Below are positions 15,500 to 40,408 of a stretch of 64,000 nucleotides of DNA, one piece after another (position 1 is the stretch's first letter; each line of letters begins with the position of its first letter). This DNA is from Halobellus rarus (GTDB taxonomy: Archaea; Halobacteriota; Halobacteria; Halobacteriales; Haloferacaceae): contig NZ_JANHDI010000009.1 of NCBI RefSeq assembly GCF_024494595.1, positions 124,001 to 188,000 of the forward strand, in the 5' to 3' direction. The notes under the pieces were generated by a model that saw only the letters and a program-made list of their open reading frames with translations, searched no databases and was not told the origin of the DNA. The position numbers were made by a program, and so were the translations under genes.

Positions 15500-16210
15500 T
15501 CACCGACGAGAGCTGTCTTGCTGTCGTGAGGAGTTGGGTGTGCCGCTCCGAAACGTGTCCATCACGGTGCGGATGATGTTTGCTTCTGCTTTTTGGAGGT
15601 GGTCGCTGGCTGTTGGCGGTGCGCAGTTGAGTTCGGCGGCGATATCGTTGTGAGTTGCTTTACGAGGCTGGGTATAGTAACCGAGATCGAGTGCAGCTGT
15701 GACTGCTTCACGTTGCCTGTCACTTAGCCTCGCCACGGGGTCGTCGTCGTGACTTTCGATACGTCCGATTTCGTCGATTTGAACGTCGACGCTATCCGGA
15801 GCGGCTTCGAGAGCACGTTGGAGTGCTGCCGCGTTACCGACAACGCGGGCTGACATCGTCCCGTTACGGTAGATGATTGGTTTGCGGACGATGATACCCG
15901 CTTGTGAAGTTGCTCGGTGGATGGCAGCGAACAGTGGCGTTTCTTGCGGGCGCATCACGACCATCACGTATGTCTGTCCTTGGGTGGTATCGGACAGGTC
16001 TACCGAATCAATCCCGGCCGTGTTGGCTGCCCGTTCGGCAAAAGCTGTCGGGTCACCATCGACAGTATACAGGAGCGTTGACTGTTCGCCGGCAGTCAGA
16101 CTCCAGTCAATCAGTCGGGCCTCTGTGATGACCGGTGAAGCGGCTAGAAGCGTGAAAAACTCCGGTGATCGGTCATCGTCGACCTGGACGGTAACCTGCA
16201 GGTGTTTCAT
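15500..16210 (-). CDS. HTH_10 (bat-like) transcriptional regulator
   Basis: 236 residues. An N-terminal domain of about 150 residues (MKHLQVTVQVDDDRSPEFFT) resembles the bacterioopsin-activator sensor part. It is followed by RLSDRQREAVTAALDLGYYT, then PRKATHNDIAAELNCAPPTA and SDHLQKAEANIIRTV, which is the HTH_10 domain. The protein would be a cytoplasmic DNA-binding regulator. It is divergent from the cupin gene (90 bp between starts), which is a plausible target. Confidence 0.9.
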   Translation of the reverse strand: MKHLQVTVQVDDDRSPEFFTLLAASPVITEARLIDWSLTAGEQSTLLYTVDGDPTAFAERAANTAGIDSVDLSDTTQGQTYVMVVMRPQETPLFAAIHRATSQAGIIVRKPIIYRNGTMSARVVGNAAALQRALEAAPDSVDVQIDEIGRIESHDDDPVARLSDRQREAVTAALDLGYYTQPRKATHNDIAAELNCAPPTASDHLQKAEANIIRTVMDTFRSGTPNSSRQQDSSRR

Positions 16211-16300: not shown

Positions 16301-17071
16301 ATGGAAGCTGTGATGGACTCTCGTGATGGCAGACGGTCCACTGATGAAAAGAAGCGACGAACTCTTCTGACTGGTCGGCCGCTCGTGGATGGAACGCCGG
16401 TTGACGGGCCAACACTTGAACTAGATCCCGAGAGCCCTGCTAGTGACCTGTTGCGACAGTCGCCTCGCCCGCTTGTTTCCGATCCGGTCAGCCGAACGTG
16501 GGCAACACTGCTAGAGCGGCCAGATCCAGACGGGGCTGATCGCCCAGTTCTTGTTCAATGGGTATCACCGGAATCTCCTGCGCCACCTGTTCACTACCAT
16601 CCGACGACAGAGACGTTCAGCGCGCTTGAAGGGCAACTCACCGTTGTCTGCGACGGAGAGCCGATTCACCTCAGTCCCGGAGAATCGCTGACCGTTAATT
16701 CAGGGCAAGAACACACGTTTCGAAACGAGACGGATGACACCGTTGCATTCAGGGCTGAGCTTCCATCGATTCGCACGGCAAAAGGCCTCTACACCGGCTG
16801 GGGTCTGGCTCACGAGCGCGGCAGAGATGGTAATGGTGAGTATCCCGGGCCGGGGTTAGGACAAGCGCTCGTGATCGCGGCTGATCTCTACGATGAGACG
16901 ACGATGACGATGGCTCCTGTACTGGCGCAACAGTTCCTGTGGGCGACCGTCGGTCGAGTTGCTCGGCTATCGGGAGTGAGCGGTATTGATGAGGCGTATC
17001 TTGATGAGTCGTTCTGGAATCAACACGTTGAACAGCCAGAGTGGGGGCAATCTGAGGATGCTGGGTACTGA
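16301..17071 (+). CDS. Cupin domain protein
   Basis: 256 residues with a single cupin fold in the middle: PPVHYHPTTETFSALEGQLT supplies the HxH...E metal ligands and GESLTVNSGQEHTFRNE supplies the second motif with its histidine. N- and C-terminal extensions are larger than in minimal cupins. ATG at 16301 is used; 16313 is an alternative. It probably binds a metal and a small molecule or acts as an oxygenase or isomerase; the substrate is unknown. It overlaps a small membrane-protein frame by 14 bases, suggesting a two-gene operon controlled by the divergent HTH_10 gene. Confidence 0.85.
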   Translation: MEAVMDSRDGRRSTDEKKRRTLLTGRPLVDGTPVDGPTLELDPESPASDLLRQSPRPLVSDPVSRTWATLLERPDPDGADRPVLVQWVSPESPAPPVHYHPTTETFSALEGQLTVVCDGEPIHLSPGESLTVNSGQEHTFRNETDDTVAFRAELPSIRTAKGLYTGWGLAHERGRDGNGEYPGPGLGQALVIAADLYDETTMTMAPVLAQQFLWATVGRVARLSGVSGIDEAYLDESFWNQHVEQPEWGQSEDAGY

Positions 17072-17520: not shown

Positions 17521-17865
17521 TTATCCGGTGTGGTTTGTAAAGTGAATGACTAACTCTTCCACAGCGAGCGCGTAAACAGTCATTTCGGTTCCTTTTGTGG
17601 AGTACCACGTGTCTACAGCCTCAACGACGCCGGCTTCGCAGAGGTGTTCAAGGTGGTACTTCGCGTTTTGGATAGATGTGTCGGCACCCTCTGCGAGGTC
17701 TGAGGTTGTCGCTGGCTCGTCGTCAAGCGCCGCTAGTATCTGCTGTGCTGTGTCCGAGGAAACTGTTCGGAGCACGTCAGTCGGGGGGCCGTCGTCAATG
17801 ACGACGCGAGTTCGTTCACGCGGCGTGTGGTCGACAGGGGTGTGGTGGGGGAATACAGTTGGCAT
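17521..17865 (-). CDS. ArsR-type winged-helix regulator, paralogue of 10456-10800
   Basis: 114 residues from ATG at 17865 (MPTVFPHHTPVDHTPRERTR). Winged helix from VSSDTAQQILAALDDEPATT through SDLAEGADTSIQNAKYHLEH to a GVVEAVDTWYSTKGTEMTV wing, ending TVYALAVEELVIHFTNHTG. Length, leader and ending match the gene at 10456-10800 residue for residue in many positions. It lies just downstream of the CPBP gene on the same strand (19 bp), so the two may be co-transcribed. Confidence 0.82.
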   Translation of the reverse strand: MPTVFPHHTPVDHTPRERTRVVIDDGPPTDVLRTVSSDTAQQILAALDDEPATTSDLAEGADTSIQNAKYHLEHLCEAGVVEAVDTWYSTKGTEMTVYALAVEELVIHFTNHTG

Positions 17866-17884: not shown

Positions 17885-18844
17885 TTATCGGCTGTTGTAC
17901 GTGGTGATGCGGTCGCTGAGTTCGAGTGGTCCATCACGCCAACGAACATACGCGAGTAGCAAGAGGCCGCCGAGGAGGGCGAACCCGACGAAGACGAGCC
18001 CTTCTTCTCCGACCCACCGCGATGGGCCGACGATGTCGACAGCGAGGAGTTCCGGGGTCTGCTGTGAATGTCCGAGTCCGAATATCGCGCTTTGTGTGAA
18101 ATTATAGAACACGTGAAAGCCGATACTGAGAGCGAGTTCCCCGGTCAGAACGTATACGCCACTCAGTATGAGTCCAGCTATCAGGTAGTACCCGTACTGG
18201 CTCAGGTGCGTTACTTTCGCGCCGTGAAGAAACGCGAACACGAGTGTACTGACCGTGACTGCGAGTCCAATAGCCATCCACCGGGGGACGAATCCGGTCG
18301 CTCCCTCGGCAAGGTTCGTCAGCATCGCACCGCGGATGATGAATTCTTCCCACGTAGCGGCGAAGGCGATATACGCGAACACGACTCCAAGCGCTGGTAG
18401 GAACGGCAGGTCGCCGGATCCTTGCATAACGCCACCGAACGTGGCCCAACCAGTACCGAGAGACACAACAAGTGCACCAGCGTTGATTACTGTGGCGACG
18501 AGCCCACCGACAGCAACCGAGTGCCACCATTCTCGATCGAGCGATAGACCGAACCCGCTCACGGGCCGTCGGTCAATGACTCGTGCACTGAGAAGGACTG
18601 CGCCGAGGAGAATGACGGCAATCCCCGTTAGTTCTAGGAGTTCTCGTATTGGATGGTCGAATCTGGCCCGTATTTCGGTCTGGAGGATTGCGAGGACGAG
18701 AAACGTTAGCACTGTCGGTAATAGCGCGCGTAGCGGTGCACGGAGTCGGCACTGCTCAGAGTTCCAGACCGGCCAGAGGAGTTGCAGAATCCTCTGACGG
18801 AGAGTGGTCGGTAGAATACGGTCAATCCTCGATTGTAACGACAT
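17885..18844 (-). CDS. CPBP-family intramembrane metalloprotease-like protein
   Basis: 319 residues with about eight membrane helices. The CPBP (CAAX protease and bacteriocin-processing) motifs are present: the diglutamate in ATWEEFIIRGAML, the second motif FAFLHGAKVTHL, and the third-motif histidine in LSIGFHVFYNF. These predict a metal-dependent intramembrane protease, though for many haloarchaeal members proteolysis is unproven. It is divergent from a winged-helix/small membrane protein set at 18945-19904, an arrangement repeated at 23068-24891. Confidence 0.9.
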   Translation of the reverse strand: MSLQSRIDRILPTTLRQRILQLLWPVWNSEQCRLRAPLRALLPTVLTFLVLAILQTEIRARFDHPIRELLELTGIAVILLGAVLLSARVIDRRPVSGFGLSLDREWWHSVAVGGLVATVINAGALVVSLGTGWATFGGVMQGSGDLPFLPALGVVFAYIAFAATWEEFIIRGAMLTNLAEGATGFVPRWMAIGLAVTVSTLVFAFLHGAKVTHLSQYGYYLIAGLILSGVYVLTGELALSIGFHVFYNFTQSAIFGLGHSQQTPELLAVDIVGPSRWVGEEGLVFVGFALLGGLLLLAYVRWRDGPLELSDRITTYNSR

Positions 18845-18882
18845 ACACGGTTCAAGAGGACGGGTACAAGTAGCATCCCAGG

Positions 18883-18907
18883 CACGGCTTCCGCTTCAGA
18901 AGCCGTG
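18883..18907. promoter_or_regulatory. Hairpin in the CPBP / winged-helix divergent region
   Basis: Perfect 9-bp stem CACGGCTTC and GAAGCCGTG around CGCTTCA, followed by GCGGG and six T. It could be a terminator-like structure or an operator. A related hairpin occurs at 23785-23813 in the equivalent place of the second module. Confidence 0.5.
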
Positions 18908-18944
18908 GCGGGTTTTTTAATTGATACCCAGGCTTGGCATACAT

Positions 18945-19286
18945 ATGGTTGAGGACGAGGATGCCGTCTTAGCGTTACTCGACGACGAGTACGCCCGAGC
19001 GATCCTCGCTCACCTCACAAGTGAACCGATGTCAGTCGATGAACTCTGTACGGCCTGTGAGATGTCCGATGCGACGGCGTATCGCCGTCTCAACCGGTTG
19101 CTGGAGGTTGACCTCGTGACCGAGAAGCAAGAAATTGACCCCGATGGTCACCATTACAAGCGGTATGCGGCGACTGTTGAGGCTGTTACCGTTGCGTTCG
19201 CTGATGGGGCCTACGAGGTAGATGTAACACGGTCGACAACCGACCCTGCCGACAGGTTCACAGAGCTGTTTGAGGGGTTGTCCTGA
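18945..19286 (+). CDS. ArsR-like winged-helix regulator, module A
   Basis: 113 residues from ATG at 18945 (MVEDEDAVLALLDDEYARAI). The helix-turn-helix is SVDELCTACEMSDATAYRRL, then NRLLEVDLVTEK and a wing with DPDGHHYKRYAA. The C-terminus is VDVTRSTTDPADRFTELF. The same shape, including YRRL.RL..xDLV.E, appears in the genes at 23388-23741 and 39738-40085. It is followed after one base by a small membrane protein gene, so it should regulate or be regulated through that partner. An upstream TTG at 18921 is less likely. Confidence 0.88.
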   Translation: MVEDEDAVLALLDDEYARAILAHLTSEPMSVDELCTACEMSDATAYRRLNRLLEVDLVTEKQEIDPDGHHYKRYAATVEAVTVAFADGAYEVDVTRSTTDPADRFTELFEGLS

Positions 19287-19287
19287 G

Positions 19288-19611
19288 ATGCGTCTCTTAC
19301 AGTTGGAAGCGACTGGGACTGACCCGTTCATAGCACTCGGCGTGCTCGTCCTCTCTGTGGTCTCAGTAGTGCTTTCGCTGATTATCGCCGTGGTTCTGGT
19401 TCGCGGCTACCGTCAAGGACCCGCTCACCGCGGGACGCTTTGGCTCGCCGTCGGCCTCATCTTCTTGATAACGGTACCCGAGTTGCTTCGTGTCGGGTTG
19501 CCGACGGCGACCGGTATTGGGGTCGTCGGTCGTTCAGTGCTTGTCAGTGTCTGTGAGCTGTTCGGCCTTGGGACGATCCTGTGGACCGTGTACGGAGGTG
19601 GGGCTCGGTGA
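19288..19611 (+). CDS. Small three-span membrane protein, DUF7521-like, module A
   Basis: 107 residues from ATG at 19288, one base after the stop of the winged-helix gene. Three hydrophobic helices: FIALGVLVLSVVSVVLSLII, GTLWLAVGLIFLITVPELL and VLVSVCELFGLGTILWTVYG. The first loop RGYRQGPAHRG corresponds to the YxGYRRNxS loop of the related proteins. I recall such genes as DUF7521, always beside a winged-helix gene; that name is from memory. It ends in GTGA overlap with a second related protein. Confidence 0.75.
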   Translation: MRLLQLEATGTDPFIALGVLVLSVVSVVLSLIIAVVLVRGYRQGPAHRGTLWLAVGLIFLITVPELLRVGLPTATGIGVVGRSVLVSVCELFGLGTILWTVYGGGAR

Positions 19612-19904
19612 TAATAGACAGTCTGCTGGTGATAGAACTACTTGGTGTGGGTTTGGTAGCACGCGGCTTGACTGCTATCGTCGGACTGTTTGTCGCTGCG
19701 CTGGCGTATCGGGGGTACCAACGGAATGGTTCCGAAAAGATGCGGGCGCTTGCTATCGGTATCGGTCTGTTGACAGCCGGCGTTTTCGTGGCGGTTCTAC
19801 TCGCGGACATCACTGGTGCGGGGAACGGCGTTGTCTTACTCGGCCGAGGTCTCGTGACGGTGATTGGGCTGTGCGTCGTGCTGTACGCTATCATTATGGC
19901 GTAA
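19608..19904 (+). CDS. Second small three-span membrane protein, DUF7521-like, module A
   Basis: 98 residues from GTG at 19608, which overlaps the previous stop as GTGA and has a good ribosome-binding site (GGAGGTG) about 10 bases upstream; that decides the start over 19581. Helices are LLVIELLGVGLVARGL, TAIVGLFVAALAYRGYQ and onward, with the loop YRGYQRNGSEKMRALAIGIG typical of the family, and a last helix TVIGLCVVLYAIIMA. Having two such proteins in one operon is unlike the other two modules, which have one each. Confidence 0.72.
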   Translation: MIIDSLLVIELLGVGLVARGLTAIVGLFVAALAYRGYQRNGSEKMRALAIGIGLLTAGVFVAVLLADITGAGNGVVLLGRGLVTVIGLCVVLYAIIMA

Positions 19905-19958
19905 CTACATCTAATACCGGACGCGTTCACCACTGGTTTCGGATGAGCTGAACGTCGA

Positions 19959-20831
19959 CTACGGCCAGTCAGGGTCGATACCGACCAGATCGGCGCTGAT
20001 CGTCCAGAGCCGCTGCCGGTTCTCTGGATCGGTCGCTTCCGTCGACGGAGAGGTGATTCCTTCTCCGGTGACGTACGTGCCGGTTCCATCACCGAATTCC
20101 GGGGCCGTGACGAGGTGGCAAAGTCGCCGTGCGCCTTCCTGTTGGGTAGTGCCGATACCGGGGATGATGGCTGCCGCTCGGACCATCGCTCGTGTCCAGA
20201 TCGGGGCGTCGCGGAACAGGTTCGTCGACGGGACGAAACCGGGGTGGAAGCAGTTCGCCGTGACTTCGGTGTCTTCGAGTCGGTCGGCCAGTTCGAGTGT
20301 GAACGCGACCGTGGCGAGTTTCGAGCGGGCGTACGCTTGGAGCGAATCGTACTCGTTGGTGAACTGGATATCGTCGAAATCGAACGTGGCGCGACGGTGG
20401 ATATCTGAGGCCGTAACGACGACCCTGGTTGGTTCTGAGGTTCTGAGTCGGTCCAGTAGTTCGTGTGTCAGGAGATACGGGGCAAGGTGATTAACGGCGA
20501 ACGTGAGTTCGACGCCGTCCTCGGTTTCGGTGCGACGGTGAGCTGAGAGCCCAGCGTTGTGAACGAGGGCGTCAATCCGGTCATAGGTATCGAGGAGTTC
20601 CGTCGCAAGAGAACGAACGGTGGCCTGCGTTGCGAGGTCCGCCTGGTGAAATCGGATATCGCCGTCGAGCGGAGTCGTGTCAGCGACGAGTGTGTCTCCG
20701 CGCGTCTGGTCTCGGCCGATGACGGCAACGGTCGCACCCTGTGTAGCGAGTTCCGTTGCAGCGATGCGACCGATGCCGCTCGTCCCGCCGGTCAGCACCA
20801 CGACGCGCTGTGTGTCCGCACTGGTTGTCAC
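19959..20831 (-). CDS. Short-chain dehydrogenase/reductase
   Basis: 290 residues. Rossmann motif VVVLTGGTSGIGRIAATEL, the NAG motif in LVHNAGLSAHRR, NHLAPYLLT, and the catalytic YxxxK in YARSKLA. This is the retinol-dehydrogenase-like branch (classical SDR, NADP-type because of the basic GRDQTRG after strand 2). The start is ATG at 20831. A cytoplasmic oxidoreductase on an unknown alcohol or ketone. Convergent with module A and not obviously part of it. Confidence 0.92.
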   Translation of the reverse strand: MTTSADTQRVVVLTGGTSGIGRIAATELATQGATVAVIGRDQTRGDTLVADTTPLDGDIRFHQADLATQATVRSLATELLDTYDRIDALVHNAGLSAHRRTETEDGVELTFAVNHLAPYLLTHELLDRLRTSEPTRVVVTASDIHRRATFDFDDIQFTNEYDSLQAYARSKLATVAFTLELADRLEDTEVTANCFHPGFVPSTNLFRDAPIWTRAMVRAAAIIPGIGTTQQEGARRLCHLVTAPEFGDGTGTYVTGEGITSPSTEATDPENRQRLWTISADLVGIDPDWP

Positions 20832-20951
20832 GTATCGTTGCAGGATTCGAACGGCAGATGCGTGTGAGTTTCGGTACTGAGTGCGATCGGATCAAGTTGT
20901 CGTGCCATCGCAAGCAGTGATTACTTCTGCCAGGGTTCGACACGTCAGATT

Positions 20952-21488
20952 ATGACATATTCACAACAGTATGGGCTGTCCGCGATCGACCTCTCCGGAC
21001 GCCAGTATTCCGTCGAGCAGACTGGACGGGATCAGAACTTTCGCCCCGCGTACGAAGCGAGGGACGTTGCGGGCGACACGATTTTTCGCACCACGTACCA
21101 GATGTACGAGGAAAAAGACGAGTTCCCATTCGTCGACGCCGACGGGACTGAAATCTGTCGCGTGAAGGCTATCGATACGTGGGATATCGCCGGCGACTAT
21201 CTCCTCACGGACAGCCATACCGACGAAGAACTCGTTATCTTTGATAACGACCTCTCGCTGTTACAAGACACGTGGCGGATCCGCGACGCCGACGACCGGT
21301 CGCTGCTTGCCGAGATCAACTCCCGCGGCGCACTCGTCACCCTCGCGCGGAACCACGATTGCCGCGACGACGATCCCACCGCCGTCGGCAACTCGCGCTC
21401 GATGGATGGCCGGTGCTGGCGTCGCCGGCCTCTTGCTGTTCATCGTCGCAGTAATCGGTGTCGCCGTCACGGTGGCGTCGATGAATAG
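20952..21488 (+). pseudogene. LURP-one-related protein, C-terminus lost
   Basis: The first 130 residues match the LURP-one/tubby-like fold common in haloarchaea: YSVEQTGRDQNFRPAYEARD, then TIFRTTYQMYEEKDEFPFVD, VKAIDTWDIAGDYLLTDSHT and SLLAEINSRGALVTLAR. From about residue 132 the frame becomes Arg/Cys-rich (RCWRRRPLAVHRRSNRCRRH), which is not native, and it ends at 21488. Family members are about 190-200 residues with a second sheet, missing here. From about 21360 the sequence is coding in another frame (see 21406-21711), so a deletion or recombination has fused two genes. Confidence 0.62.
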
Positions 21489-21711
21489 ACCGACGCTGTT
21501 CAACCGGCCGCCCGCCTGGTTCGAGGTTGTGTTTGTCGTGCCGACGCTGGGAGCTCTCGCATCGGTCAGTGCAGTTGCCCGTGCAGGCCGTGCGTGGGTA
21601 CAAGATGACTGGTCGCTCCCCACTCGTGCCCGACTGGATGAGATACGGGAAGGACTCGGTATGAACCTGGGCGAACATACAGAACGCTGTAACTCAAAGA
21701 CCTACGTATGA
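21406..21711 (+). pseudogene. C-terminal fragment of a membrane protein fused to the LURP-one remnant
   Basis: 101 residues from ATG at 21406 (MAGAGVAGLLLFIVAVIGVA). Two hydrophobic helices, then WVQDDWSLPTRARLDEIREG. It resembles the WSLRTRIHQTILALL end of the membrane ORF at 48599-49006 and the C-terminal membrane tail of haloarchaeal serine hydrolases. It lacks the upstream hydrolase part, overlaps the broken gene before it, and couples by ATGA to a 35-residue frame. It might still be translated. Confidence 0.4.
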
Positions 21712-21815
21712 ACCAGCCATCCTCTGAGGACGAGAACGACGCCGACAGCGAGGAAAAAGAAATTAACGAAACGCTGGATCGAGTGATCAACTTCCTCGCA
21801 ACGTATCTCCCGTAG
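21708..21815 (+). CDS. Tiny acidic protein coupled by ATGA
   Basis: 35 residues from ATG at 21708, overlapping the previous stop as ATGA (MNQPSSEDENDADSEEKEIN), ending at TAG 21813. The composition is strongly acidic, and a short amphipathic helix closes it (LDRVINFLATYLP). It may be a real small protein left behind in the recombined region. Function unknown. Confidence 0.35.
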   Translation: MNQPSSEDENDADSEEKEINETLDRVINFLATYLP

Positions 21816-21953
21816 TTGTCACGCGAGAAGCTGGTAGGTCTGTGCGCCAGCCTCGAGAACTACGATATCACCTCATACACGTCGAATTCAGCATAGTCGG
21901 AACGTTTACTGGGAAATCAAACTTCTTTATCCCGTCATTCGAATCTCTCTGAT

Positions 21954-22961
21954 ATGCCCTCCAAATCGCTGTCGCTTACGGTGAGGATGGTTGCTGCTAT
22001 TAGTGGACTCGCGGTCGTTACGGTGGGGTTTCTCGTCGGGGTCTGGGCTGTTCTCTATGGCGTTCTCACGTTTTTTGACGTGAGCCCGGCATCACCCCTC
22101 GCAGCAGGGATTACCACGCTGACGATTGTGACCGTCGGATATCTCGAATACAGGCAGATCGACACGATTGAGCGAGTTGCTGACGCCCAACGTGTCGATA
22201 GGGAGGCCGAGCCAGCGTTGTACGAGGTCGTCACACGCATCGCATCACAAATCGGTATTCCAGTCCCGACCATCGCGCTCTCGGAACGTCAAACACCCGA
22301 AGCACTCGCCGTCGGATTTCGACCGGGGAACGTCCATTTGATTCTGTCTCGCGGGACGCTCAACGCTCTTGACGGAACTGTCGAACTAGAAGCCGTAGTC
22401 GCTCACGAACTCGCACACGTGAAAAACCGGGATGCGATGGTAATGACGATCGTCTCACTGCCAGTCATCCTCGCTTATGGTCTCGGATCCCGACTCGCAG
22501 ACGTTGAAAATCCGGGGTGGGCCGCAATCGTCATCGTCCCGCTCGCATTCATATCGACGCTTGTCTGGGGACTCGGAAACGCAATCACTGCTCGCCTGTC
22601 CAGAGTGAGAGAACACGCCGCAGACCAAGCCGCAGCAGAGATTACCGGATCACCTGCGGCCCTCGCTAGTGCACTCAAACGGCTCGATCAAGATATCTCG
22701 GAGACGCCAAACCGAGATTTACGTGAGGCGTCCGGTATCTCGTCGTTGTCAATTCTTCCGCTTGAACCGGAAGAACTCGAAAAGGTGATGCTCGGTCCAG
22801 AGGGCAACACGGAACCGTCGTACTGGTGGCTTCGCAAACGACTCCACCGGTTCGAACGCTGGCTGTTCCGAACACACCCACCAACGGACGACCGCATCGA
22901 ACAACTCGCTGCTTACGAACGCAGCCAAGAACGGCACTCAGCACCAAAGGTACGGTCTTGA
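21954..22961 (+). CDS. htpX: HtpX-like M48 membrane metalloprotease
   Basis: 335 residues. Two N-terminal helices, then the zinc motif HELAHVKNRDAM (HExxH) near residue 152, two more hydrophobic helices, and the third zinc ligand region REHAADQAAAEITGSPAAL. The C-terminus has the FRTHPPTDDRIEQLAAYE signature of the family. It should degrade damaged or misfolded membrane proteins at the cytoplasmic face. Starts at ATG 21954. The gene stands alone between the LURP-one remnant and module B. Confidence 0.93.
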   Translation: MPSKSLSLTVRMVAAISGLAVVTVGFLVGVWAVLYGVLTFFDVSPASPLAAGITTLTIVTVGYLEYRQIDTIERVADAQRVDREAEPALYEVVTRIASQIGIPVPTIALSERQTPEALAVGFRPGNVHLILSRGTLNALDGTVELEAVVAHELAHVKNRDAMVMTIVSLPVILAYGLGSRLADVENPGWAAIVIVPLAFISTLVWGLGNAITARLSRVREHAADQAAAEITGSPAALASALKRLDQDISETPNRDLREASGISSLSILPLEPEELEKVMLGPEGNTEPSYWWLRKRLHRFERWLFRTHPPTDDRIEQLAAYERSQERHSAPKVRS

Positions 22962-23067
22962 TGGGAAACGACCTGAAACGTTCGAACCGTTCGTGGAAAC
23001 CTATGGGAGGTGCTCGGAAACAGAAGGGAATCCGCGTATGTCTTCAGCCGATCTGTCGTTCCAGGTG

Positions 23068-23391
23068 CTATGTGCGTTGCGGGGTCCACAGCCCATAGAG
23101 GATCGCTACGAGCCCCGCGAGTTCGCTGACTTGCCCGACGCTATTAACGATCGGGATCGGTACGTCGAGCCCGAATCCTAAGATCACGAGTGCAGCCCCT
23201 GGAACACCGAGAATGAGCGCGAATCCGAGAGCGATAAACAGCATCGGTCGGCTTTGGTTCCGCCGGTAGCCGAGATACGCGAGGTAGCTGATCGTCAAGC
23301 CGAGCGCGACGGAGATCAGTTCACTGTAGGTGCGAATACGGCTCAGCGTATCGAGATCGATCGACTGGAGGAGTAGTTCAAGCGTGGTCAT
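23068..23391 (-). CDS. Small three-span membrane protein, DUF7521-like, module B
   Basis: 107 residues (MTTLELLLQSIDLDTLSRIR). Helices are LISVALGLTISYLAYLGY, MLFIALGFALILGVPGAALV and QVSELAGLVAILYGLWT. The diagnostic loop reads AYLGYRRNQSRPMLF, as in the modules at 19 kb and 40 kb. It is coupled by ATGA to the winged-helix gene ahead of it. It could be a membrane sensor for that regulator; this is inference. Confidence 0.78.
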   Translation of the reverse strand: MTTLELLLQSIDLDTLSRIRTYSELISVALGLTISYLAYLGYRRNQSRPMLFIALGFALILGVPGAALVILGFGLDVPIPIVNSVGQVSELAGLVAILYGLWTPQRT

Positions 23392-23741
23392 CTGTTTTCG
23401 ACGAAGCGAGTGAAGCGGTCGGCCATCCGTTCACGACGGGAGACGGTGATCTCGAAGTTCTCATCGGTGAGTTCCAGCGTGACGCTGTGGAGTTGCGCCT
23501 GGTACACTTTGTAGTTCTTCCCGTCCGTGACTGGTCGGATCTCTTCGGACACGAGGTCGTGCTGTTGGAGTCGTTCGAGGCGGCGGTAGATCGTCGGTTC
23601 CGACGCGTCGATCCGTGCGCTGAGTTCGGATGCCGAACAGGGATCGTTTTTCGTTTCGATGAGGATGTGCCGGGCACAGTCATCCGCGAGGAGGTCTGTG
23701 AGAGCCGCCGCGTCCGTTCCATCCGACACCACAACTGCCAC
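23388..23741 (-). CDS. ArsR-like winged-helix regulator, module B
   Basis: 117 residues from GTG at 23741 (VAVVVSDGTDAAALTDLLAD). The helix-turn-helix is SASELSARIDASEPTIYRRL, then ERLQQHDLVSEE with wing TDGKNYKVYQAQ, and a C-terminal RRERMADRFTRFVENR. It is transcribed away from the CPBP gene at 23854, and the two starts are about 110 bp apart with a hairpin between. Confidence 0.88.
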   Translation of the reverse strand: MAVVVSDGTDAAALTDLLADDCARHILIETKNDPCSASELSARIDASEPTIYRRLERLQQHDLVSEEIRPVTDGKNYKVYQAQLHSVTLELTDENFEITVSRRERMADRFTRFVENR

Positions 23742-23784
23742 ATCTATGTCGTTCTCAATAACAGTTCGGTACCCGTATCGGTTG

Positions 23785-23813
23785 CGCCTGGCTTCAACCG
23801 CTGAAACCAGGCG
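23785..23813. promoter_or_regulatory. Hairpin in the module B divergent region
   Basis: CGCCTGGCTTCA (23785-23796) pairs with TGAAACCAGGCG (23802-23813) apart from one mismatch, around a 5-base loop. It shares the GGCTTC...CGCT core with the hairpin at 18883-18907. Its position between divergent starts suggests an operator for the winged-helix protein or an RNA hairpin in the CPBP leader. Confidence 0.5.
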
Positions 23814-23853
23814 ACGGCGCTCTTTGATATGGCACGTGCAGGCTTCAGTACCG

Positions 23854-24891
23854 ATGTCGAAGTCAAATATGCCCCGCGATGCGGACGATCCCTCCGAACA
23901 GGCTACTGGCTCTACTGGAGAGACAGATCATCAGAGACAGCTCAAACGGATACTACTCGCCCCGTTCTGGAATCGTACTGAACGCCGCCCCCGTGCACTG
24001 TGGCGGATCCTCGGCGCGTTCGTTCTCGTCGCTATCGGCTCACAGGTGCTCCCGTCTGTACTGTTCGGGAATAGCGATCTCCCGCCGTCGGTGCTGGGAT
24101 TGGCTCAGAACGTCTTTATTGTTGGTACCGTGGTTTTCGTGATCGTGGTCTGGGCTCAGTACGTCGATCACCGCCGAGTCACCGAATACGGCCTGGAAGT
24201 CGGACCGGAATGGCTTCGTGATGCGAGTGTCGGTGTCGTCATCGCATTCGTCGCCTGGGGACTGGCACTTGCAGTGCATCTAACCAGGGGCTGGGCATAC
24301 ACCGCGGCTGTGCTGTCACCGGGCAACGCTGCGAACGCACTTCCCTTTGCGCTGGCTCTACTCGCGTTCGTCGTCCAGTTCTTGCTCGTCGGGATCTGGG
24401 AAGAGCTTCTGTTTCGCGGACTCGTGCTGAAAAACGCCGCCGAAGGATTCCATTCGCAGTGGGTTTCGGAACGCGGTGCGGTGCTGGCCGGACTCGGTGC
24501 GTCCTCGCTACTGTTTGGCGCCGTTCACGCTGACCAAGCGACCTCGCTACCCGCGCTTGGGTTCTGGGTGTTGATGGGGCTGGTTCTCGGCAGTACATAC
24601 ATCGTAACCGACTCGCTGGCACTTCCGATCGGACTACATTTCGCAACGAACCTCGCGTTCAACAACGTCTACGGATTGAGTAATGTCCGACCGGAGACTG
24701 CAGAGATCGCTGCCACGCTACTCCGCCCGGAATTCACCGGGCCCACACGATTCGTCGGCGTATCAGGCCTCGTTAACGTCGGTGTCGTCGTACTCATCGC
24801 CGCACTCTCGATCGGGTACGTAACGATCCAGTACGGCCCTATAAGGGTGAGAGTGGCGTCTGTGTATGCTATTGATTCCGAGTCAACATAG
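23854..24891 (+). CDS. CPBP-family intramembrane metalloprotease-like protein, module B
   Basis: 345 residues from ATG at 23854 (MSKSNMPRDADDPSEQATGS); ATG at 23869 is an alternative. It has about eight helices. Motif 1 is GIWEELLFRGLVLKNAAEG, motif 2 is LLFGAVHADQA, and motif 3 is LPIGLHFATNLAFNNVYG. All predicted metal-binding residues (EE..R, H, H) are present. It has only moderate similarity to the CPBP at 17885-18844 outside the motifs, so the two modules are old relatives and not a recent duplication. Confidence 0.9.
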   Translation: MSKSNMPRDADDPSEQATGSTGETDHQRQLKRILLAPFWNRTERRPRALWRILGAFVLVAIGSQVLPSVLFGNSDLPPSVLGLAQNVFIVGTVVFVIVVWAQYVDHRRVTEYGLEVGPEWLRDASVGVVIAFVAWGLALAVHLTRGWAYTAAVLSPGNAANALPFALALLAFVVQFLLVGIWEELLFRGLVLKNAAEGFHSQWVSERGAVLAGLGASSLLFGAVHADQATSLPALGFWVLMGLVLGSTYIVTDSLALPIGLHFATNLAFNNVYGLSNVRPETAEIAATLLRPEFTGPTRFVGVSGLVNVGVVVLIAALSIGYVTIQYGPIRVRVASVYAIDSEST

Positions 24892-26583: not shown

Positions 26584-26633
26584 CCCCACCCTACTCGCTC
26601 ACCGCTGACGCGGTTCGCTCCTTGAGGGTGGGG
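26584..26633 (-). ncRNA. Candidate omega RNA 3' scaffold at the end of tnpB
   Basis: A strong stem, CCCCACCCT (26584-26592) with AGGGTGGGG (26625-26633), encloses an inner hairpin ACCGC-TGAC-GCGGT (26601-26614). It overlaps the last codons and stop of tnpB and lies at the element's right end. In IS200/IS605 elements the omega RNA that guides TnpB comes from exactly this region, with the guide being the flanking DNA beyond the end. The RNA itself is inferred. Confidence 0.5.
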
Positions 26634-27820
26634 CTTCCTGTTTCTACGACGCGCTTTGCAGATACAGGCGTATCCACAGGGAGCGCAGTCTCCACAGGCG
26701 TTGATTCGGAGTGAACCACTCCTACTTCTTCGAGACCGCGAGAAAGAATATTCCACGCCGCATTCGCGTCCCTATCCGCCTCGAACCCACACGACGGACA
26801 CGAGTGTTCACGGACCCACAGCGGTTTGTCCGTCTTGACACCGCAGGACGCGCACTCCTTCGTCGTATCTTTCGGGTCAACTGCGACGAAGTGCGTTCCT
26901 TCGCGTTCGCACTTGTATTCGAGCATCCGAAGGAACGTTCCCCACGCCGCACCTGCTCGGTTCCGTGAGTTACCCGGCAGTTCGACCAGTCCTTTCGCGT
27001 CCAAATCCTCAACGGCCACCAAGTCGTACTCGGTGGCGTAGTAGTTCGAGAGTTTGTGCAAGAAGTCTCGCCGCTTCCGCTTCAACTCGGCGTGGCGTTC
27101 GGCCACGACCTTGCGCTGTTTCTCCCAATTGTTCGAGCCGTGTTCTTTCCGCGAGAGGTCGCGTTGTGCGCGTTCGAGTCGCTCACGTTCCTCGCTGAAG
27201 TCGGGACTTTCGATGGCGTACCCGTCAGTGTCGTGGGCGTACTTGAGAATCCCCACGTCGATACCAACGACTTGCTCTGGTTTCTCAGGTTTCTCCGGCG
27301 TTGCTTCGTCCACGTCGATACCGAACGTGGCATACCACTCGCCCGTGGGTTCTTGCTTGACCGTGACCTGTTTGATGGTCGCGTTCTCGGGAATGTCTCG
27401 GTGGAGGTGAATCGGAATCTCACCAATCTTACTCAACCACAGGACAGACCGACCACTCGTATTCTTGAGTTTGAAGCCGGACTGGTTGTAGGTGAGCGAC
27501 CGATACTCCCGAGGCGGTTTCCACTTGAGGCTTCCCACGGCGTGCCCATTCTCCTTCTGCACTTTGAGCGTGGAGAGGTTGCCGTAGATGCGCTTGACGA
27601 CCATCTGGAGGACTTTCGAGTGAACATTTTCGAGGTCGCCCCACCACGATTTGAGGTCGGGAAGTCTCCCCTGCACCTCGTAGCGAGCAGGAATGTCGTC
27701 TACCTCGTTGAGTTTGGAGAGGACGTGATTGTACAGTTGCCTACAAGTATCGACGTGGTGCAGAAGCGTCTCAGCGATGTCTTCTGGCGGGTTGAGTCGA
27801 TACTTGTAGTTGTACTGCAT
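26591..27820 (-). CDS. tnpB: TnpB, RNA-guided nuclease of an IS200/IS605-group element
   Basis: 409 residues, apparently intact. The N-terminal wedge and helical part (MQYNYKYRLNPPEDIAETLL) is followed by a split RuvC domain. The first catalytic Asp is D188 in VVGIDVGILKYA, the Glu is E271 in LVAVEDLDAKGLV, and the last Asp is D351 in EADRDANAAWN. A zinc finger with C323/C326 and C341/C344 lies between them. The protein cuts DNA matching its omega RNA and helps the element persist. It starts three bases after the DUF2080 stop. Unlike the copy at 13.3 kb it has no lesion that I can see. Confidence 0.93.
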   Translation of the reverse strand: MQYNYKYRLNPPEDIAETLLHHVDTCRQLYNHVLSKLNEVDDIPARYEVQGRLPDLKSWWGDLENVHSKVLQMVVKRIYGNLSTLKVQKENGHAVGSLKWKPPREYRSLTYNQSGFKLKNTSGRSVLWLSKIGEIPIHLHRDIPENATIKQVTVKQEPTGEWYATFGIDVDEATPEKPEKPEQVVGIDVGILKYAHDTDGYAIESPDFSEERERLERAQRDLSRKEHGSNNWEKQRKVVAERHAELKRKRRDFLHKLSNYYATEYDLVAVEDLDAKGLVELPGNSRNRAGAAWGTFLRMLEYKCEREGTHFVAVDPKDTTKECASCGVKTDKPLWVREHSCPSCGFEADRDANAAWNILSRGLEEVGVVHSESTPVETALPVDTPVSAKRVVETGSPTLKERTASAVSE

Positions 27821-38112: not shown

Positions 38113-38383
38113 ACGTCGATTGTGAAATTCTAAACCGGATAGTTGTATTTTGTTCGGAAAGTAAAACTCGGGTTTTACCCTGCCTGAACGGCTTCACGCG
38201 TGGAGCTGTCCGGCTCTCGAGTATACGGTTACTACTCGACCGATTTCGAATTGCAGGAAAAGCCGGGATGCGGGAGCCGACTAAGCCCACCCATTCGAAT
38301 ATAAAAACATATCGACGGCCTGCACTCGGCCGAGGCTGAGACTTCACTTATACAGCCGTGGGTGCTGGGTGTTGAACTGCGGT

Positions 38384-39628
38384 ATGTCCCCACCACGACA
38401 TCGGCCCTCCAACGACCGAACACGCCGACAGCTCCTCGCTGCCGGTGGTGCAGCCCTCCCACTACTGACTGCTGGATGTCTCTCCAGTTTGCCCCCACTC
38501 GGTGGCAATCAGCGCTATGGTCGCCTGACGGTCCCGAACGGGGGTGATCCGGCGTATCGACGGTGGCTCCCCGCCCCAACGAGCGTCGAGTCACCCATCG
38601 AACGGTATTACTTCGCCGCCGTGCAGCCGACCACCCTCCAACCGGGCGCTCCCGAGGAGTTCATCGCGCGGCGAGCCTACAGTAAGGCGGACATCAATTA
38701 CTTTGGCATCGGCTTCGAGAACTACGACCGACTCGTTGATTCGATCTTCGGCACCGTCATCGAGGCCTCCTTCGATCGCACGCCGGTCACCGAGACCGTC
38801 ACTGACAGCGGCTACGAACGCACCGGCGAGTATCGAGGCCACTCTGTCTTCGCTCGATCGGACGTGCCGCGTCGCGTCGCTATCGGCGACGGCGTCATTG
38901 TCTGGACGAGCGTACAGAAACACGAGCAGCCAAACCTAGAGGCGCTTATCGATGCCGGCGCTGGTGAACGGCCTCGATATCACGAGGAGAGCGCGCGGTT
39001 CGACCAGCTCACAACGGCCGCTGGTGGAAACGCCCACCTCATCGTCAACACGGACATCCACGATCCGACGGGCCGACCAGCGATGCTCGCCGACGCGTTC
39101 AGACTCGATGGCAGGACGGCGTACCAAGTCGTCTCATATCGCTACGAGGACGGCCGTGTGCCGACGGAGTCCGCCCTGAAACACGCGCTGCAAGAAGACG
39201 GTTACCGATTCACCACGGAGGCCGAAACGTTCGACGTGCAGATCGACGGTTCGCTTGCGACAGTTGAAGCCCAGGTACCATTCAACTCAGCGCGCGAGGT
39301 TGCACCCGAGTATGATCTCCCGCAAGTGACGTGGGGTTGGGCCCAAGACGCGGACGCAGCGCGCGTCACGTTTCGACACGAAGCTGGTGAGTCGGTCTCC
39401 GCGGACCGGCTTTATTACGATCTCGACCGGCCGGATGACGTTGGGGAAATCGAGAAACAGCCCCTCTGGTCGGACAGCGACGGCGATTCAGTGTCGCCCG
39501 ATGCGGAGGCGACCGTTGATCTGAGCGAGCACCCGGACGCAGAGGGCGTCTCCCTCGTGTACTCGACGGGCGGAACCCATTTCCACGTACTGTTCACTGT
39601 GGATTTGCAGGGGGAGACCGATGAGTAA
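38384..39628 (+). CDS. Large Tat lipoprotein upstream of module C
   Basis: 414 residues from ATG at 38384. Twin-arginine signal TRRQLLAAGGAALPLLTAGC with lipobox LTAGC. The mature protein is acidic with alternating strands and helices, no membrane segment, and no catalytic motif that I recognise. Short phrases such as YYFAAVQPTTLQPGAPEEFI and VVSYRYEDGRVPTESALKHA resemble other large haloarchaeal lipoproteins. It lies 110 bp before the winged-helix/small membrane protein pair. Whether it belongs to their operon is not clear. Confidence 0.75.
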   Translation: MSPPRHRPSNDRTRRQLLAAGGAALPLLTAGCLSSLPPLGGNQRYGRLTVPNGGDPAYRRWLPAPTSVESPIERYYFAAVQPTTLQPGAPEEFIARRAYSKADINYFGIGFENYDRLVDSIFGTVIEASFDRTPVTETVTDSGYERTGEYRGHSVFARSDVPRRVAIGDGVIVWTSVQKHEQPNLEALIDAGAGERPRYHEESARFDQLTTAAGGNAHLIVNTDIHDPTGRPAMLADAFRLDGRTAYQVVSYRYEDGRVPTESALKHALQEDGYRFTTEAETFDVQIDGSLATVEAQVPFNSAREVAPEYDLPQVTWGWAQDADAARVTFRHEAGESVSADRLYYDLDRPDDVGEIEKQPLWSDSDGDSVSPDAEATVDLSEHPDAEGVSLVYSTGGTHFHVLFTVDLQGETDE

Positions 39629-39737: not shown

Positions 39738-40085
39738 ATGGCCGACGTGGACCTAGCGACCGTCGTCGCGTTGTTGGACGACGAGCACACGCGTTCGATT
39801 CTGACTGCGACCAGCGACCAGCCGCTGTCGGCCAACGAACTGAGCGAGCACTGTGAGGTTTCCACATCGTCGATCTACCGGCGGCTCGACCGCCTGACCG
39901 ACGCCGATCTTGTTGGTGAGCGGACCCGACCCCGGTCTGACGGCCACCACGAGAGGGTGTACGTCTCTCGGTTGCATCGATTCGAGGTCACCATTGCGGA
40001 TGGCGAGCTGCGATGGGACCTCGATCGAGAGCGAGACAGCGACGACGTCGCAGATCAACTGACGCGCCTCTGGGGGAAATTCTGA
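39738..40085 (+). CDS. ArsR-like winged-helix regulator, module C
   Basis: 115 residues from ATG at 39738 (MADVDLATVVALLDDEHTRS). An upstream ATG at 39621 would add 39 residues of non-native look. The helix-turn-helix SANELSEHCEVSTSSIYRRL is followed by DRLTDADLVGERTRPRSDGH, matching the proteins of modules A and B. Its stop TGA overlaps the next gene's ATG (TGATG). Confidence 0.86.
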   Translation: MADVDLATVVALLDDEHTRSILTATSDQPLSANELSEHCEVSTSSIYRRLDRLTDADLVGERTRPRSDGHHERVYVSRLHRFEVTIADGELRWDLDRERDSDDVADQLTRLWGKF

Positions 40086-40408
40086 TGTCCCTTGTCGGAC
40101 TCGGGTCCCCTATTGGACTGCTCGCGGGGCTTGCAGCCACAGCCTCGGCGCTAATCGGACTCTACATTGGCTATCAAGCGTATCGCGGGCTTCGACGGAA
40201 TGGTGAACGCTCGATGCGCTGGCTCTCGATCGGGATGATCCTGCTCTTCGGGCTCACGTACACGCTCGCAGTCACCGGACAGGGACTGCTCGCATTCCGC
40301 ATCATCCCAATCGACCTCCAGAACGCCGTCCGTCTAGTCGTCAGGATGACCCAGCTTGCCGGGCTCGTCTGTATTGCGTATTCCCTGCAAATTGCGACAA
40401 CCCGGTAG
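40085..40408 (+). CDS. Small three-span membrane protein, DUF7521-like, module C
   Basis: 107 residues (MSLVGLGSPIGLLAGLAATA). The loop QAYRGLRRNGERSMRWLSIG corresponds to the family loop. Helices are ASALIGLYIGYQAY, GMILLFGLTYTLAVTG and RMTQLAGLVCIAYSLQI. The TGATG junction with the regulator gene means they are made together. No CPBP gene is adjacent here, unlike modules A and B. Confidence 0.76.
   Translation: MSLVGLGSPIGLLAGLAATASALIGLYIGYQAYRGLRRNGERSMRWLSIGMILLFGLTYTLAVTGQGLLAFRIIPIDLQNAVRLVVRMTQLAGLVCIAYSLQIATTR

Follow-up and report, generated by a model that had tools for sequence, protein, structure and literature searches.

A conserved regulator and membrane protein cassette of haloarchaea with exchangeable partner genes and a candidate operator

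In Bacillus, SdpI sequesters SdpR. The two are encoded in an autorepressor-immunity operon of Bacillus subtilis (PMC6818787). Members of the CPBP/Abi family (PF02517) have been discussed as candidates for bacteriocin self-immunity (PMC8692603), and the function of CPBP proteins in haloarchaea is largely unknown (PMC9263693). How membrane signals are passed to transcription in archaea without a kinase is poorly known. Here, a stretch of 64,000 nucleotides from Halobellus rarus was analyzed (the window; positions 124001-188000 of contig NZ_JANHDI010000009.1, within a 3.66 Mb haloarchaeal genome), in which genes for winged helix-turn-helix (wHTH) regulators are followed by genes for small three-span membrane proteins of family DUF7521 (PF24365), in two places next to a gene for a CPBP protein. 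Judged from sequence, the module is real, conserved and apparently undescribed, a literature search having found no description of it or of a function for DUF7521; what it does, we infer. It appears to be a membrane-sensing switch of a sort not described before, with an output gene that differs from one lineage to the next.

Gene content and inheritance of the module

In the type I module, the gene for CPBP1, a predicted glutamic-type intramembrane protease-like protein of 319 amino acids (17885..18844, minus strand), is divergent from the plus-strand genes wHTH1 (18945..19286, 113 amino acids), DUF7521a (19288..19611) and DUF7521b (19608..19904). The GTG start of DUF7521b overlaps the stop of DUF7521a and is a better start than position 19581. 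In the type II module, DUF7521c (23068..23391) and wHTH2 (23388..23741) lie on the minus strand next to CPBP2 (23854..24891, plus strand), and the ATGA coupling of regulator to membrane protein that had been noticed there in an earlier note on this DNA was confirmed at 23388-23391. A third pair, of type III, consists of wHTH3 (39738..40085) and DUF7521d (40085..40408), on the plus strand with a TGATG-type coupling. The earlier note had set it apart as lacking a CPBP gene; the pair is present but not partnerless, being preceded by a conserved gene for a Tat (twin-arginine translocation)-lipoprotein-like protein (38369..39628, plus strand; no Pfam family, start uncertain). The open reading frames (ORFs) named in that note were recovered by ORF and family searches, in place or a few codons off.

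Of 293 Halobacteriales genomes searched with a profile of the window's four DUF7521 proteins, 289 gave a match, with several paralogues per genome, and the pair is near-universal. The top 100 clusters and stretches of the window's own genome were taken with 7 kb flanks and scanned with hidden Markov models of the window proteins. Nearly every DUF7521 cluster has a wHTH gene directly upstream (27/29 immediately upstream in the divergent core family of DUF7521), and no fusion of the two in a single ORF was found in the family survey. Among the 104 wHTH loci, 28 have a CPBP gene at most 2.6 kb away, whereas the roughly eight CPBP genes per genome give an estimated expectation of about 0.015 per locus. 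The binomial probability of 28 linked loci is vanishing, with the caveat that loci inside one clade are not independent; the five single-DUF7521 cases alone give only 0.005-0.07, so that support for the type II linkage comes chiefly from its clade. Two genomes of the window's genus carry 32 and 35 CPBP genes, compared with the typical number of about eight, a lineage-specific expansion.

The type I clade of the wHTH tree comprises 26 rows (support 100 in the Shimodaira-Hasegawa-like approximate likelihood ratio test, SH-aLRT) with two DUF7521 genes, and CPBP is present in 23 of the 26. The complete four-gene arrangement was found in 23 contigs of GTDB species genomes from six genera, namely Halobellus, Halorubrum, Halopenitus, Haloarcula, Natrinema and Halohasta, and also on two plasmids, pHrrPV6 and one of Haloarcula pelagica; the exceptions are a contig end (L197), a Halarchaeum locus (L219) and a CPBP remnant in Natronomonas (L220). 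In a reciprocal search, a type I CPBP profile was run over the same 293 genomes and coordinates were compared: each of the 24 type I CPBPs of at least 532 bits has a DUF7521 match no more than about 2 kb away; below them come one match of 431 bits, outside this comparison, and then matches of 213 and 185 bits. Furthermore, the distances of CPBP, wHTH, DUF7521a and DUF7521b correlate (Mantel r 0.83-0.89), with 0/2000 permutations as high, and the type I CPBPs form one clade (SH-aLRT 99). The DUF7521 a and b copies form separate clades (SH-aLRT 99), and the tandem is therefore an old duplication of which both copies were kept. Flanking genes differ while the linkage persists across several families; beyond the four genes none is conserved across genera, and the common neighbours resemble close-relative synteny. 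A further regulator gene, wHTH' (HTH_20; 17524..17865, minus strand; start uncertain, up to 17949; PF12840 44.5 bits), lies 3' of CPBP1 on the same strand. It recurs at that position in type I loci of Halorubrum, Halobellus and Halopenitus (L074, L076, L077, L082, L195, L198-L205) and is absent from those of Haloarcula and Natrinema, as an accessory gene.

The type II clade comprises 8 rows (SH-aLRT 99) with one DUF7521 gene and with CPBP in 5/8. The CPBP gene is divergent in only two of these five loci and in the others lies downstream, convergent or past another gene, and the type II CPBPs were not resolved into one group in the CPBP tree. Both window proteins pass the PF02517 cut-off of 22.4 bits (CPBP1 50.7, CPBP2 58.7). 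Residues E166, E167, R171, H207, H244 and N248 of CPBP1 are intact, and the EExxxR, FxxxH and HxxxN motif residues are kept by 97% of the 30 CPBPs, from the module and related to it, that were aligned; a sequence search for solved relatives found none. The two window CPBPs had been thought to differ outside their motifs and to have drifted apart. In fact, they are 31% identical over 312 amino acids (E 2e-26), both ends included. A viral origin of CPBP was considered and rejected, as viral contigs hold no relatives and wHTH1 has no match in phage records.

Other subtypes carry other conserved partners. The third window pair belongs to a lipoprotein subtype, in which a Tat-lipoprotein-like gene (cluster c3) stands directly upstream of the wHTH-DUF7521 pair in about 25 loci. 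In another subtype, outside the window (clusters c13/c38, about 15 loci), the divergent gene encodes a protein of about 120 amino acids homologous to the N-terminal (DUF1648) half of archaeal SdpI (hhalign probability 97.6%, E 4e-12; controls with shuffled columns at most 0.2%, and with DUF7521, CPBP and other partners at most 2%), a match found despite a score below the Pfam DUF1648 cut-off. A PF13796 'Sensor' protein is the partner in a few loci. The wHTH tree holds a type I clade, a type II clade and many subtypes without CPBP, and CPBP linkage is restricted to the first two. A gene-neighbourhood search had been set beforehand as the test that could refute the module, and in it the CPBP linkage came out above chance: type I shows a strong, reciprocal and old association, and type II shows one as well. 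What did not survive of the module idea is CPBP as a general part. Since most wHTH-DUF7521 pairs have no nearby CPBP and other subtypes have their own conserved partners, the core is a two-gene cassette of regulator and membrane protein whose partners are exchangeable, with CPBP more likely an output of it than a component of the sensing machinery.

The candidate operator and the predicted proteins

Alignment of the type I intergenes revealed a palindrome, CACNGCTTCCG-N3-CGGAAGCNGTG, about 49.5 nucleotides upstream of the wHTH start and beside a T-rich TATA-like box; of 28 tandem loci, 23 have it in this position. In the window it is the operator-like candidate CACGGCTTCCGCTTCAGAAGCCGTG (18883..18907), centred about 49.5 nucleotides upstream of the wHTH1 start and accompanied by the TATA-box-like TTTTTTAATT (18913..18922, plus strand), a putative element of the wHTH1 promoter. 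This site between CPBP and wHTH is new relative to the earlier note. Its pattern, GGCTTC-N7-GAAGCC, is exact in type I and has one mismatch in type II, where the candidate CGCCTGGCTTCAACCGCTGAAACCAGGCG (23785..23813) lies between wHTH2 and CPBP2 with the same half-site and spacing, a motif also present in loci L090 and L097. The type I half-site recurs in type II and other subtypes. Subtypes whose partner is SdpI-N-like show palindromes of their own at about -51, and visual inspection suggested similar ones upstream of several lipoprotein genes of type III. Dyad pairing reaches 78.5% versus 33-57% for slid partners, and Haloarcula has a one-base shift of the outer arm. One locus (L075) has a type I regulator with neither CPBP nor palindrome, as if the two had been lost together.

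With at most one mismatch, the pattern has two sites in the window versus 0.24 expected, both in CPBP-wHTH intergenes. In the window's genome, the sole exact match and one of six one-mismatch matches fall in the two module intergenes; a reversed-pattern control has more matches genome-wide than the pattern itself, so the count shows no enrichment. That only the two module sites stand out genome-wide points to local autoregulation. A global regulon was rejected on these grounds, and an RNA terminator hairpin is unlikely for a site between divergent starts and upstream of the TATA-like box. Taken together, the module with its candidate operator is well supported, and so is local autoregulation as suggested by the anatomy of the locus.

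The regulators score above the HTH_20 cut-off (wHTH1 43.7, wHTH2 29.7 and wHTH3 38 bits), and the motif YRRL.RL...DLV.E, pointed out earlier, is indeed invariant in the three window proteins. An AlphaFold2 model of the wHTH (predicted local distance difference test, pLDDT, 86) has as its nearest solved fold 2p4w (Phr of Pyrococcus furiosus), followed by repressors of the ArsR/SmtB/CzrA type, which suggests a winged-helix, ArsR-like fold. The alignment of the wHTH family also has near-invariant C38 and H69-H70, present in the regulators at 18945-19286 and 39738-40085 and absent from wHTH2; they form a possible metal or redox site.

The window DUF7521 copies are divergent subfamilies of PF24365. 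DUF7521b, c and d score 54, 39 and 36 bits against a cut-off of 27, and DUF7521a stays below it at 17 bits, but profile and tree assign it to the family. DUF7521b is predicted to form three helices (2-40, 43-69 and 73-97; pLDDT 80.5). Conservation peaks in the basic loop that joins helices 1 and 2 (RGYRRN.S..M), with three arginines at 89-94%, a methionine at 90% and a nearby glycine at 100%. Three window membrane proteins show the shared loop Y(R/L)G(Y/L)xRN described before, and the fourth, DUF7521a, has VRGYRQG instead. By the positive-inside rule, positive charge marks the cytoplasmic side of a membrane protein, and the basic loop is accordingly predicted to be cytoplasmic.

Proposed mechanism and rival explanations

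A model is proposed that the module regulates itself, with the wHTH protein as an autorepressor on the palindrome, DUF7521 relieving repression upon a membrane signal, and CPBP as the output; we put its chances at about even. The wHTH protein would be a dimer of ArsR fold binding the palindrome between its own gene and the divergent CPBP, beside the TATA-like box, and would thereby control both divergent promoters. The translationally coupled DUF7521 would sit in the membrane by its three helices with the basic loop facing the cytoplasm, where, upon a membrane or extracellular signal, it could bind and sequester the regulator and release repression. The released output would be the CPBP intramembrane protein in types I and II, protective or peptide-processing, and an SdpI-N-like protein or a lipoprotein in other subtypes. 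The observed gene content, conservation, co-inheritance, palindrome position and loop conservation, with the ArsR-like predicted fold, underlie this model, from which we infer repression, sequestration, the nature of the signal and the role of CPBP. The relay from membrane to regulator is suggested by coupling, topology and the likeness to SdpRI, and DUF7521 may accordingly sense something. Several findings weigh against the model. DUF7521 was rejected as a relative of SdpI (PF13630; hhalign probability 0.5%) and has no significant match to a solved fold in the PDB, so that a receptor role for it is argued from coupling, topology and loop conservation; covariation of the palindrome pairs is not above shuffles, symmetry and position being what is conserved; the wHTH protein could be an activator instead of a repressor; and the surveyed loci are the best matches to a profile that includes the window's tandem pair, which makes their proportions no unbiased census. 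A broader version, in which the ArsR-fold autorepressor and a DUF7521 receptor would keep family-wide surveillance of membrane-active peptides and call up lineage-specific protective proteins (CPBP, SdpI-N-like protein, lipoprotein), having evolved separately from bacterial SdpRI, is offered as a tentative possibility.

Alternatively, the module might work by regulated intramembrane proteolysis, as the earlier note hinted, with CPBP cleaving DUF7521 or the DUF7521-bound regulator and so transmitting the signal. The intact catalytic residues, the co-evolution of the four type I genes and the adjacency of CPBP to the regulator speak for it; however, most pairs have partners other than CPBP, so the cassette would signal without it, and we consider this reading unlikely. 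The same absence of CPBP from most subtypes, together with the patchy type II linkage (5/8, with 2/5 divergent), would suit a CPBP gene that is no more than a neighbour, with a divergent promoter region in common with the regulator but a role in an unrelated process. Against this stand a palindrome placed between CPBP and wHTH and a type I linkage that persists across several families with strong co-inheritance amid differing flanking genes, and the idea appears improbable. Least credible is a toxin-antitoxin-like or defence unit in which DUF7521 would be a small membrane toxin restrained by the wHTH autorepressor. A small coupled membrane protein with an autoregulator and some plasmid-borne copies would fit, but nearly all genomes of the order have the pair, with several paralogues each, PADLOC gave no system-specific match (the regulators match only generic wHTH models, mostly Csa3/CARF), and neither a match of the regulator in phage records nor a CPBP relative in viral contigs was found.

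Under the self-regulated model, haloarchaeal CPBP proteins would gain a genomic context and a candidate inducing regulator. Nearly all sampled haloarchaea have the pair, and with its candidate operator, its putative docking loop and partners that can be swapped, it makes the kinase-free passage of membrane signals to transcription testable at one locus.

Neighbouring genes and comparison with known systems

Between the two modules, directly adjoining type II, lies a gene for an M48 (HtpX-like) membrane peptidase (21954-22961); in Haloarcula loci (e.g. L103:224-1093) a cluster relative stands a few kb away from type I, which could be chance. Immediately left of the type I module are, at 15500-16210 and 16301-17071, a regulator of HVO_0513_N/HTH_10 (bacterio-opsin-activator) type and a divergent cupin gene. 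The sequence cluster of ORF 26591-27820, which bears a likeness to a TnpB/IS605-type protein, recurs near several module loci.

Among archaeal ArsR-family proteins, Phr (2p4w) and PH1932 (1uly) are the best fold and sequence matches of the wHTH regulators. The wHTH protein is shorter than these and adds strands of its own as well as a short, conserved helix at the C-terminus (ADRFTRL.E), the helix predicted at low confidence; it falls under the NCBIfam cut-off for Phr. Both window CPBPs are far below every cut-off of the named NCBIfam CPBP subtypes such as MroQ and MrtJ. Of the window's four membrane proteins, three lie above the PF24365 cut-off. PF13630 (SdpI) has no match in the window's genome, and wHTH1-3 score 23.4, 27.8 and 27.8 bits with the SdpR model NF033789, whose cut-off is 100. 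The likeness to SdpR/SdpI lies instead in the arrangement, in which a putative ArsR-type autorepressor is encoded with a multi-span membrane protein, and in the c13/c38 subtype, whose divergent partner is a homologue of SdpI's N-terminal half, whereas types I and II of the window carry CPBP in its place.

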